Shown here piece after piece: positions 9,347 through 35,090 of a stretch of DNA of 39,598 bases. A program made the translations under genes and the position numbers. How positions within the stretch are numbered: position 1 is the stretch's first letter; every line of letters starts with the position of its first letter. Under the pieces are notes generated by a model. It made no database searches, had not been told where the DNA came from, and worked only from the letters and a program-made list of their open reading frames with translations. The DNA comes from Candidatus Aenigmatarchaeota archaeon (GTDB lineage Archaea; Aenigmatarchaeota; Aenigmatarchaeia; QMZP01), in assembly GCA_015520105.1 (NCBI GenBank), contig WAQT01000033.1, positions 1-39,598 on the forward strand, given 5' to 3'.

Positions 9347-11839
9347 TTATTTTACAACGCCTTTTATCCTTAACAAGACGAATGCAGACAAGAGGAACAG
9401 CACACCGAAAGATATGAGAACCCATCCCGTTATATCAGGCTCGCAACTCACAGGGCACTCCGGTCCGCAATCAATTCCGTTCTCGTTGAGGTCAAGCATT
9501 CCGTTGCTGCAGGTTATTGACGGGTTGCATTCATCCTCCTCGTCTGCCTGGCCGTCGCAGTCATTGTCAAGCTTGTCGTAGCATATCTCCTTTACAGGCT
9601 CAATTCCGCCTTTGCATTCGGACCATCTTCCTTCCACGCACCTCTGAACGCCCTTTCTGCACACCCCCACATCGGTTCCGCAGTATCTCGTGTCTCCGCT
9701 GCTGCAACACGATATCCCGTCGTCAATCTTTCCGTTGCAGTCATCGTCTATTTCATTGCATACCTCTGATGAAGCGCCAGCACCATTGTAACATGCGCAT
9801 CCTGTCTCCTCGACGGATTCTCCGCCTCCTATATTGTCTACAACACCGTCGCAGTCGTCATCCTTCCCGTTGCACACCTCTTCTCGCGGATAAACTGCGT
9901 TTTTGCATTCTCCCCATGTGCCATTTACGCATACCGAATAGCCCTGCCTGCATATTCCTGTCCTGTTTCCAGGGCCGCATGGCCTGTTATCTCCGTTTCT
10001 GCAGAACTTCCCCGGAGGAGGTTCTTTTACGCATTCGTCTCCGGGATAGTTCTCATCCCAGTCGCCATCGCAATCATCATCTATATGATTGCCGCATATC
10101 TCCTTCAGTTCTCCCGGATACACTCCGGAAGAGCATGTGACATTCAGTCCATCCTTTGAGCACACCCATGTACCGCTGCACGCGTTCTTCCATCCCTTTG
10201 AGTTTGTGAACGAGAAGCAGCCTTCCCCAAGAATTCCGGGAATCTTTCCGGAAATGCGGTTCTCTCGGTCTTTGAAATCCTCGTCTATCTCCCCGTCGCA
10301 GTCGTCATCCCTGCCGTTGCACAACTCTTGTTTCCCGGGATGCTGCTCTGGGTCAAGGTCGCTGCATGTTCCAGACTCCTCGCAATATCCGTCTTTATCC
10401 CTGTCCTTGCATACGCGAAACCCGGATTCTGTGAAGTTCAGGACGACGCCTGAGGGGCCAAGAAGCTCCACCCTGAGCACATGGCTCTCATTGGGGTCTA
10501 GATAGGAGAGAGGTATGTTCATGTCAGCAAGATTGACTTCATCCTCCATGAATGAGTTGAAAATGAGTTCCGTAACCACAGCCTCGACCGCCATGCCTTG
10601 CGCATCGAACGAAAGGCTGACCACTCCGTCAGGGTCGCTGGTCTTCTCCACTCCCATGTTCAGGAGAGTTATATTGCATATATCGCCGGAAGGGCAAGCC
10701 GGAGCAAGCGACTCGAAATCATCCGTTGACAGTTTTCTTGTATATTTCTCCCCGAATTTTATGCTGGCGTGCGTCTCTCCTCCGCTCGAGGACCACTGAT
10801 TCTCTTTATGAACAGATTTGCTGGTGTACGCGCAGAAATGGGTGCTGGATTCGTGTTCGCTGCCGTTGGGAGGAAGCGCGAATATCACGTACGTATTGTC
10901 AAAGTCGAAATAACGGAAGTTTATTATTCCGTTCTTTCCGTCCACAGAACTTATTTCGTCATTAAGCGCATCTCCTCCTATACTCTGATATATATACTCT
11001 CCGTTTTCCCTGCCCACAATATAGACACCGCCTGAATTCACTTCTCCGTTCGGGCCGCCCAAAGGACCTCCGTATCTTGAATATCCCTTAGAGACGCTTT
11101 CCTCATCAAACGGGTCCACAAGGCACGTCGCCCCTGTGCCTGCCTGTGTGCACCGGCTCTTGTTTATAATCCTTCCAAGAGACCCGTACCAGCCGTTTCT
11201 GTCAAGCGGAGTGCCCATATAGCTCTCCCCGCCGCATGCAGGACGCATAGTCCCCTCAACATCGCTGTTCCCGAGAATATCGACTGACCATTTAGTAGTT
11301 ATTGCATCAGGAGGCGGGGATATGAGAGAGGTCGCGTCTTTTATAAAAAGAAGACCGTCGGAAGCAGAGACGCTCGACTCATACAACTGGGACTGGATTT
11401 CGTATGGGCAGCCGTTCGCGGAGTCGCAAAGCCCGGGCTGAGTGGAATATTCCACGCAGACCTGTGAAGGGCTCGAAGAGCCTCCGCAGAATCCGTATGC
11501 AACTATTCTGTAGGAGAAGGTTTGAACAGGATGTTCCTCCCACTCAATGGTTCCTGAGGCTGTGAGGTTGTAGGAGAATGCATGAGTCTTCGGTTCATAA
11601 CTCTGGTTCTGAACCATGTAGTCAAGAGCTTTCGCGGCTTCCTTTTTTCCATCGATATATACAACAAGCTTCGAACCCGATGTTATGTTCTCGTCATGGA
11701 ATATCCTGACCACCGCATCCAATGGATAATACACGGAGTAGTTCTTGGTGGTCACATTAAGATATACCATCCCTGATGCAAACGAAGAGGAAAGAACCAC
11801 CAGAGAGAGCGTCAGCAATGCTGCAATAAACGAGCGCAT
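9347..11839 (-). CDS. Predicted secreted, membrane-anchored protein with MopE-type Asp/Cys-rich repeats
   Basis: N-terminal signal peptide (MRSFIAALLTLSLVVLSSSFASG), C-terminal TM (ITGWVLISFGVLFLLSAFVLLRIKGVVK), and repeats CNGRDDDCDGEIDE, CGNHIDDDCDGDWDE, CNGKDDDCDGVVDN, CNEIDDDCNGKIDD, CYDKLDNDCDGQADE. Confidence 0.85.
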   Translation of the reverse strand: MRSFIAALLTLSLVVLSSSFASGMVYLNVTTKNYSVYYPLDAVVRIFHDENITSGSKLVVYIDGKKEAAKALDYMVQNQSYEPKTHAFSYNLTASGTIEWEEHPVQTFSYRIVAYGFCGGSSSPSQVCVEYSTQPGLCDSANGCPYEIQSQLYESSVSASDGLLFIKDATSLISPPPDAITTKWSVDILGNSDVEGTMRPACGGESYMGTPLDRNGWYGSLGRIINKSRCTQAGTGATCLVDPFDEESVSKGYSRYGGPLGGPNGEVNSGGVYIVGRENGEYIYQSIGGDALNDEISSVDGKNGIINFRYFDFDNTYVIFALPPNGSEHESSTHFCAYTSKSVHKENQWSSSGGETHASIKFGEKYTRKLSTDDFESLAPACPSGDICNITLLNMGVEKTSDPDGVVSLSFDAQGMAVEAVVTELIFNSFMEDEVNLADMNIPLSYLDPNESHVLRVELLGPSGVVLNFTESGFRVCKDRDKDGYCEESGTCSDLDPEQHPGKQELCNGRDDDCDGEIDEDFKDRENRISGKIPGILGEGCFSFTNSKGWKNACSGTWVCSKDGLNVTCSSGVYPGELKEICGNHIDDDCDGDWDENYPGDECVKEPPPGKFCRNGDNRPCGPGNRTGICRQGYSVCVNGTWGECKNAVYPREEVCNGKDDDCDGVVDNIGGGESVEETGCACYNGAGASSEVCNEIDDDCNGKIDDGISCCSSGDTRYCGTDVGVCRKGVQRCVEGRWSECKGGIEPVKEICYDKLDNDCDGQADEEDECNPSITCSNGMLDLNENGIDCGPECPVSCEPDITGWVLISFGVLFLLSAFVLLRIKGVVK

Positions 11840-18633: not shown

Positions 18634-18746
18634 GGGCCCGTAGCTCAATCGGATGCCTGCCGGCGTATTTGGCGGTGCCGGTTTTCCGGGAATAGAGCGC
18701 TCGGCTTCGGACCGAGAGGTTGGGGGTTCGAGTCCTCCCGGGCTCA
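18634..18746 (+). tRNA. tRNA-Arg(UCG) with a ~35-39 nt insertion/intron in the D-loop
   Basis: GGGCCCG TA GCTC AATCGGAT-[insert]-A GAGC G CTCGG CTTCGGA CCGAG AGGTT GGGGG TTCGAGT CCTCC CGGGCTC A; all arms pair, anticodon TCG. Confidence 0.9.
18656..18690 (+). other. Candidate D-loop intron of tRNA-Arg (exact boundaries uncertain)
   Basis: CGGA (18650-18653) pairs with TCCG (18685-18688), flanked by 3-nt bulges TGC and GGA: BHB-like. Internal CCGGC/GCCGG stem. Removing exactly 39 nt would restore a standard 9-nt D-loop, so boundaries need RNA data. Confidence 0.55.
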
Positions 18747-34475: not shown

Positions 34476-34515
34476 ACAATCCGCCGTTAATCCGTTGGTT
34501 ATGAGCCCGGAGGGA

Positions 34516-34631
34516 TTCCCGTTTCATGGTTTAACCCGTTTATAGGTTAACCATGCCGCATGTCCATTTGCTGCATGTTTTTGCTCCACCGCTTTTTGAA
34601 GAAGGCGGAAGCCTCTCGTAAAAAGCGGTGT
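34516..34631 (-). other. tRNA-Lys intron 3 (116 nt, T-loop, about 59/60)
   Basis: Needed to join GAGGGTTCGAA to TCCCTC; intron contains the 11-bp stem CACCGCTTTTT/AAAAAGCGGTG and a second stem CATGGTTAACC/GGGTTAAACCATG. Confidence 0.8.
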
Positions 34632-34653
34632 TTCGAACCCTCGACACCCGGGT

Positions 34654-34735
34654 TTCTTCTGTCATCGAGCCCTTTGCGGGACTTTCCCTGCGGAAGCGTC
34701 TCTCCGAAAGGCTCTTCACACGCTTTTAATGACAT
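34654..34735 (-). other. tRNA-Lys intron 2 (82 nt, canonical 37/38)
   Basis: Central helix CTTT x GAAG, bulges TA^A and AA^A, intron helix TGTCAT x ATGACA, outer stem CCGGG x CCCGG. Confidence 0.88.
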
Positions 34736-34742
34736 TAAAAGC

Positions 34743-34772
34743 TTCACCCGGCGGCTTCGCTCGAAGCCCTGT
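34743..34772 (-). other. tRNA-Lys intron 1 (30 nt, between positions 30 and 31)
   Basis: BHB: CACC pairs with GGTG; bulges GG^A and AA^G; hairpin GGCTTC-GAGC-GAAGCC inside. Confidence 0.85.
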
Positions 34773-34849
34773 CCGGTGCTCTAACCAGACTGAGCTACGG
34801 GCCCATAAAGACGCATGACCGCGGCACAGCCGGCACGCCCTGGGCGGGA

Positions 34850-34946
34850 TTTCCCTCTACACTATCCGGTAACCGGTGTCCGGTTAACCTCAATTAAAGG
34901 GGATGATAGTGCGGTAAGAAGGGGAAATGTGTTCCCCTTCTTGCGC
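34850..34946 (-). other. tRNA-Asp intron 2 (97 nt, T-loop, about 59/60)
   Basis: Needed to join GCGGGTTCGAA to TCCCGC; internal stems AAGAAGGGGAA/TTCCCCTTCTT and CACTATC/GATAGTG. Confidence 0.75.
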
Positions 34947-34967
34947 TTCGAACCCGCGTCCTGGGAG

Positions 34968-35030
34968 TTCAGCAAACCTTTCGGAAGGCGGAAGCCTCCT
35001 TTTTGATGAAACTTTTTTCCAAAAAGTTTC
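34968..35030 (-). other. tRNA-Asp intron 1 (63 nt, canonical 37/38)
   Basis: BHB-like with one U.U mismatch in the central helix; AAAC/GTTT intron helix; internal hairpin GAAACTTTTT-GGA-AAAAAGTTTC. Confidence 0.75.
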
Positions 35031-35090
35031 TGACAGTCCCAGATGCTAGGCCACTACACTACCAGAGCTTTCGCGGTCCGCGGCCCGCGT

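Follow-up and report, generated by a model that had tools for sequence, protein, structure and literature searches.

The window analysed here, a 39,598-nt contig of an Aenigmatarchaeota genome, contains a tRNA-Lys(UUU) gene interrupted three times. Does such a gene yield a working tRNA, how would its introns be removed, and what is the conserved element inside the second intron for?

A tRNA-Lys(UUU) gene with three introns

The gene is encoded on the minus strand (the strand was unstated in the preliminary description) and is organized as follows:

34502..34804, minus strand: tRNA-Lys(UUU) gene, three introns, 303 nt (ARAGORN on the spliced product; splice-aware alignment)
34773..34804, minus strand: exon 1, tRNA positions 1-30
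34743..34772, minus strand: intron 1 at 30/31, 30 nt; central helix CACC/GGTG; bulges GG-A and AA-G
34736..34742, minus strand: exon 2, tRNA positions 31-37, GCUUUUA, anticodon UUU
34654..34735, minus strand: intron 2 at 37/38, 82 nt; central helix CTTT/GAAG; inner helix TGTCAT/ATGACA
34632..34653, minus strand: exon 3, tRNA positions 38-59
34516..34631, minus strand: intron 3 at 59/60 (T loop), 116 nt; central helix TTCG/CGGG
within 34516..34631, minus strand: intron 3 hairpins CACCGCTTTTT/AAAAAGCGGTG and CATGGTTAACC/GGTTAAACCATG
34502..34515, minus strand: exon 4, tRNA positions 60-73

Joining the exons (32, 7, 22 and 14 nt) gives a 75-nt tRNA that ARAGORN calls as tRNA-Lys(ttt), with all stems paired, a UUU anticodon and the consensus features of the T and D arms. 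The preliminary description had proposed a 303-nt gene reduced to a 75-nt tRNA in which all four stems pair, and both the ARAGORN call and the tRNA of a relative bear this out. Splice-aware alignment of the mature tRNA-Lys of that relative (G020) to the window recovered the same three introns, with the previously given lengths of 30, 82 and 116 nt and the positions 30/31 and 37/38. Its score was 43; shuffled DNA reached 7.1 ± 2.0 (at most 12), and the best other place in the window 29. The third intron, earlier placed at about 59/60, lies at exactly 59/60, the only helix-forming register among the four that give the same product. As had been anticipated, default scans miss the gene: in its unspliced form it is called neither by ARAGORN (with or without introns) nor by Rfam RF00005. 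It is flanked by a TrmB-type regulator on one side and a type IV leader peptidase gene on the other. The three-intron tRNA-Lys(UUU) gene in the window is thus real; tRNA genes with three introns are an already known kind, for which this lineage is new. The preliminary description made no mention of the antisense element in intron 2, the adjoining interrupted tRNA-Asp gene or the copied family of T-loop introns.

BHB junctions and the splicing endonuclease

All three junctions form a bulge-helix-bulge (BHB) core with a 4-bp central helix and 3-nt bulges, the predicted cuts falling after the second bulge nucleotide, in agreement with the earlier claim of three BHB introns in a DPANN archaeon. 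Exon-intron registers were picked by BHB fit; plain BLAST-style splice alignment shifts the junctions by a few bases. Equivalent central helices arise in 0.6% of shuffled introns for intron 1, 6.8% for intron 2 and 3.4% for intron 3, the helix of which includes two G-U pairs. Intron 2 has the full hBHBh' form, with outer and inner helices both present, whereas intron 3 is without an inner helix and is nearer to a bulge-helix-loop. Introns 1 and 2 had both been described as textbook BHB motifs; this stands fully for intron 2 and, for intron 1, stands for the central helix but not for the inner helix, which is weak.

The splicing endonuclease of this genome (EndA; G000:C42) is of the three-unit epsilon2 type. 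It is 420 aa long, matches the ARMAN-2 structure 4fz2 with 331 bits (E 8e-98) and retains, in the alignment, the catalytic Tyr, His and Lys and the loop Tyr-Lys, which in a three-unit chain of about 400 aa identify the epsilon2 form. The loop of epsilon2 endonuclease has been tied to broad substrate use (PMC12397907), and an enzyme bearing such a loop fits introns 1 and 3, whose motifs are relaxed. This EndA, tolerant of relaxed motifs, would excise all three introns. Exon joining after BHB cleavage is performed by RtcB, which would then ligate the four exons. Unlike the exons, BHB helices and enzyme type, the splicing, the order of events and the ligation are what we infer from sequence.

The enzyme type was not used as evidence for the cause of intron number. 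Within the order to which the window belongs, epsilon2 EndA is near universal, and one genome without it (G001) has many intact tRNAs. Against a link, G001 is 88% complete, still has introns and carries a short EndA relative without the catalytic Lys; outside the order, both intron-poor genomes with epsilon2 EndA and intron-rich genomes without it occur. Short EndA relatives in two genomes (G001:C3, L203; G017:C97, L204) are without the catalytic Lys and the loop, and similar short paralogues stand alongside epsilon2 EndA in several relatives.

An antisense element in intron 2

Intron 2 contains an element that can pair with the anticodon loop of its own precursor:

34722..34730, minus strand: antisense segment ATTAAAAGC, 9 bp with exon 2 and the first two intron nucleotides
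34707..34714, minus strand: hairpin stem, 5' strand GAGCCTTT, preceded by a degenerate D-like TGAA
34667..34674, minus strand: hairpin stem, 3' strand AAGGGCTC
34659..34666, minus strand: C-like element GATGACAG, a 3-nt bulge GAT followed by GACAG; overlaps the BHB inner helix

In 22 of 22 parsed members of the order, exon nucleotides 31-37 and the first one to four intron nucleotides form 8-11 bp with an antisense segment (N)TTAAAAGC. Behind it, in the members parsed, come RTG, a D-like NNRA, the hairpin, a 3-nt bulge and usually GACAG. At fixed geometry 79 of 84 hairpin cells pair, compared with a shuffled mean of 42 and with none of 20,000 shuffles reaching 79 (shared ancestry is uncorrected in this test), and sliding the partners by 1-3 columns abolishes the pairing. 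Across the element 99.1% of pairs are standard (83.2% when shuffled), with 31 double changes (8.6 when shuffled), and RNAalifold returned the same fold unaided. A compensatory change is seen at exon position 31, where two relatives (G030 and G034) have A31 facing U, so that their antisense ends in T, not C.

A covariance model of the element (R1) matches the window at 34654-34742 with 62 bits and finds matches in 49 of 160 genomes of the phylum. Two of its 52 matches are in tRNA-Leu(UAA) and nearly all the rest in tRNA-Lys(UUU); the two weakest, in neither tRNA, are read as spurious. Conservation merely as a BHB inner helix was ruled out, because the element is kept where the helix bases differ (G001 and G008). 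An H/ACA reading of the ACA within GACAG was dropped, there being no two-sided pocket. We found no description of this class of antisense intron in the literature searched.

The same layout in other tRNAs

The antisense layout recurs, refitted each time to the tRNA's own loop, in tRNA-Arg(UCU), tRNA-Gln(UUG) and tRNA-Glu(UUC) of this genome and in the Glu, Arg and Leu(UAA) tRNAs of relatives. ARAGORN agrees with the spliced Gln and Glu tRNAs. The tRNA-Leu(CAA) gene beside tRNA-Glu probably has it as well, as judged by eye with one G-U pair. On composition-shuffled loci, the strict scan gave 0 matches in 1.3 Mb and the relaxed scan 8 in 3.5 Mb. Restriction of the layout to Lys, Arg, Gln, Glu and Leu tRNAs is a lead, drawn from loci that are not a random sample of tRNAs. 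A single model for all tRNA types was abandoned: MAFFT misaligned the differing antisense segments, and the fitted alignment (A2) contained spurious matches. In nearly every verified case, 5 or 7 nt separate the antisense from the D-like box. By the N+5 rule, 5 nt points to position 34 in the Arg, Gln, Glu and some Lys introns, and 7 nt, found in the window copy and in Leu(UAA), points to position 32.

A possible guide or timing fold

These features suggest an intron that would fold back on the unspliced anticodon loop, its antisense lying ahead of a kink-turn-like hairpin, and that would aim 2'-O-methylation at that loop before splicing in the manner of box C/D RNAs. Comparative analysis leaves evenly balanced the proposal that the intron 2 class consists of intron-encoded C/D-like guides for such methylation. 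Its wider form we put forward tentatively: across the phylum, the 37/38 introns of several tRNAs, chiefly those whose U34 reads a two-codon set (Lys, Glu, Gln, Arg(UCU) and Leu(UAA), and probably Leu(CAA) as well), may be cis-acting C/D-like guides by which the wobble nucleotide or nucleotide 32 is ribose-methylated before splicing, coupling modification to intron removal.

The genome has a fibrillarin gene (E 1.5e-81), and of the kink-turn features the stem and the 3-nt bulge are conserved with strong covariation, the GA partner needed for tandem sheared G-A pairs being lost in the window's group. A CUGA D box is present in some relatives (G001, G008, G061 and G030), and the C box is degenerate throughout. 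In the window copy both boxes depart from consensus (AUGACAG against RUGAUGA for C, UGAA against CUGA for D), and for this reason we do not file that copy as a box C/D RNA; its N+5 target is C32, not U34.

The main rival holds that the element is no methylation guide but masks the anticodon or times splicing, its fold keeping the pre-tRNA inactive until intron 1 has gone; we regard it as possible, if rather doubtful. When forced, the antisense hairpin and the BHB fold come to -37.8 and -38.5 kcal/mol, and with energies so nearly equal the role of the element may instead lie in folding or timing. The global fold with intron 1 present contains the antisense hairpin, and removal of intron 1 leaves the two folds near equal. 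The element pairs with the unspliced form, intron nucleotides 1-2 covarying with it, and A38 and C39 of the mature tRNA would mismatch the antisense in several species; loss of the GA of the D-like box in the window's group also suits a mask. However, a mask does not need the conserved kink-turn-like hairpin with its fixed 3-nt bulge. Also against the mask, the D-box spacing is 5 or 7 nt nearly throughout, and the 5-nt form, seen in the introns of Arg, Gln, Glu and some Lys tRNAs, sets N+5 at position 34.

Separate histories of the three introns

The introns differ in age and origin. Intron 2 is old and shared across the phylum; intron 1 is common to related species, and in three of them (G037, G031 and G002) the stretch spanning exon 1 and intron 1 shows 82-86% DNA identity. 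The tRNA-Lys(UUU) genes of G037, G031 and G038 have the same three intron positions, and that of G029 has introns at 30/31 and 37/38. In two relatives (G033, L283; G035, L289) the gene has four introns, at 22/23, 30/31, 37/38 and 59/60, and the spliced products are called as tRNA-Lys(ttt). A 2014 review gave three as the maximum number of introns per tRNA gene, which these genes exceed.

Intron 3 shows no conservation between species and is a member of a T-loop intron family copied among the tRNA genes of this genome. T-loop introns of other tRNAs, tRNA-Ile among them (E 4e-14), repeat its hairpin. A second interrupted gene adjoins the tRNA-Lys gene and is likewise overlooked by ARAGORN and Rfam:

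34836..35068, minus strand: tRNA-Asp(GUC), introns of 63 nt (37/38) and 97 nt (59/60); spliced product called as tRNA-Asp(gtc)

Many introns related to the T-loop intron of tRNA-Asp sit in the T loops of tRNAs for Ser, Leu, Arg, Thr and Glu (E down to 1e-27), and such introns, a family copied at 59/60, are found on contigs C39, C6, C58, C10, C32, C27, C19 and C55. Two copies of the intron 3 hairpin also occur outside any recognized tRNA (L264; G000:C47, about 9600-9910), in an insert with a direct repeat of some 30 nt at its borders; this is possibly the mobile form of the intron sequence. The same copying pattern has been reported as intron transposition in Thermoproteales (PMC4033280).

It is very unlikely that, with the exon boundaries right, intron 3 leaves in two steps or at another register of the T arm. 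Its two strong hairpins, its want of an inner helix and the presence of T-arm introns at 53/54 as well as 59/60 in two relatives (G008 and G004) would suit this, but of the four equivalent registers 59/60 alone yields a central helix, and many tRNA genes of the genome are interrupted at that position.

Genome context

The assembly comprises 797 kb in 66 contigs and is 88% complete; its RpoB relatives are labelled as Aenigmatarchaeota or Nanoarchaeota metagenome-assembled genomes (best identity 72%). The preliminary description had called for a genome search for an uninterrupted tRNA-Lys(UUU). None was found in the assembly, although at 88% completeness a copy could be absent from it. The sole other tRNA-Lys found has anticodon CUU (contig C22) and introns at 30/31 and about 53/54. 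In a partial census, about four fifths of some 34 roughly parsed tRNA genes are interrupted, several by two or three introns. That the gene is a decayed pseudogene, its intact counterpart lying in the missing part of an incomplete, fragmented assembly, is highly improbable, given that all stems pair, that architecture and BHB motifs are repeated in related species and that most tRNA genes parsed in the genome are likewise interrupted. We put at roughly 0.9 the probability of the explanation as a whole: a working tRNA-Lys(UUU) gene with three BHB introns of differing history, cut by epsilon2 EndA, the second carrying the antisense element.

Two further features of the window were recorded. A tRNA-Arg(UCG) gene with a D-arm intron of roughly 38 nt occupies 18634-18746 (plus strand), where ARAGORN reports a truncated gene at 18675-18746, and 9347-11839 (minus strand) encodes an 830-aa protein that looks secreted and has four metal-binding motifs of the MopE type.

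Relation to known systems

Among Thermoproteales, tRNA-Glu(UUC) and tRNA-Pro(UGG) of Pyrobaculum likewise have three BHB introns at canonical and non-canonical positions (PMC4390854, PMC4033280), and similar introns are copied among tRNA genes. They differ in phylum and in their (alpha-beta)2 endonuclease, against epsilon2, many T-loop introns and, in two relatives, four introns here. In the Asgard Atabeyarchaeia and Freyarchaeia, most tRNA genes are interrupted, over half of them by several introns, often at non-canonical positions, and that report, as searched, describes no antisense intron element (PMC11291895).

The antisense class would work most like the archaeal tRNA-Trp intron, which guides methylation of nucleotides 34 and 39 (PMC4090602, PMC7994747). 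The two share a 37/38 intron complementary to its own anticodon region, a kink-turn (a kink-turn-like hairpin here) and a genome encoding fibrillarin. In contrast to pre-tRNA-Trp, the introns here sit in other tRNAs, have a single kink-turn-like hairpin and degenerate boxes in permuted order (antisense, D-like, hairpin, C-like), and pair with the precursor beside the splice site. Pyrococcus C/D sRNAs directed at the wobble base of tRNA-Leu(CAA), Leu(UAA), Met and Trp target anticodon loops of an overlapping set of tRNAs (PMC7994747), but, apart from Trp, from separate sRNA genes and not from introns of the target tRNA.

Because most tRNAs in such genomes escape gene finders, the apparent tRNA sets of DPANN genomes are biased. 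According to reviews, the intron of tRNA-Trp is the one case in archaea where a tRNA is served by a guide encoded in its own intron (PMC4090602). Should the guide reading hold, guide introns would be widespread in a DPANN phylum and would serve several tRNAs; this would offer an explanation of why such introns are kept and would tie splicing to wobble modification in a way that can be tested.
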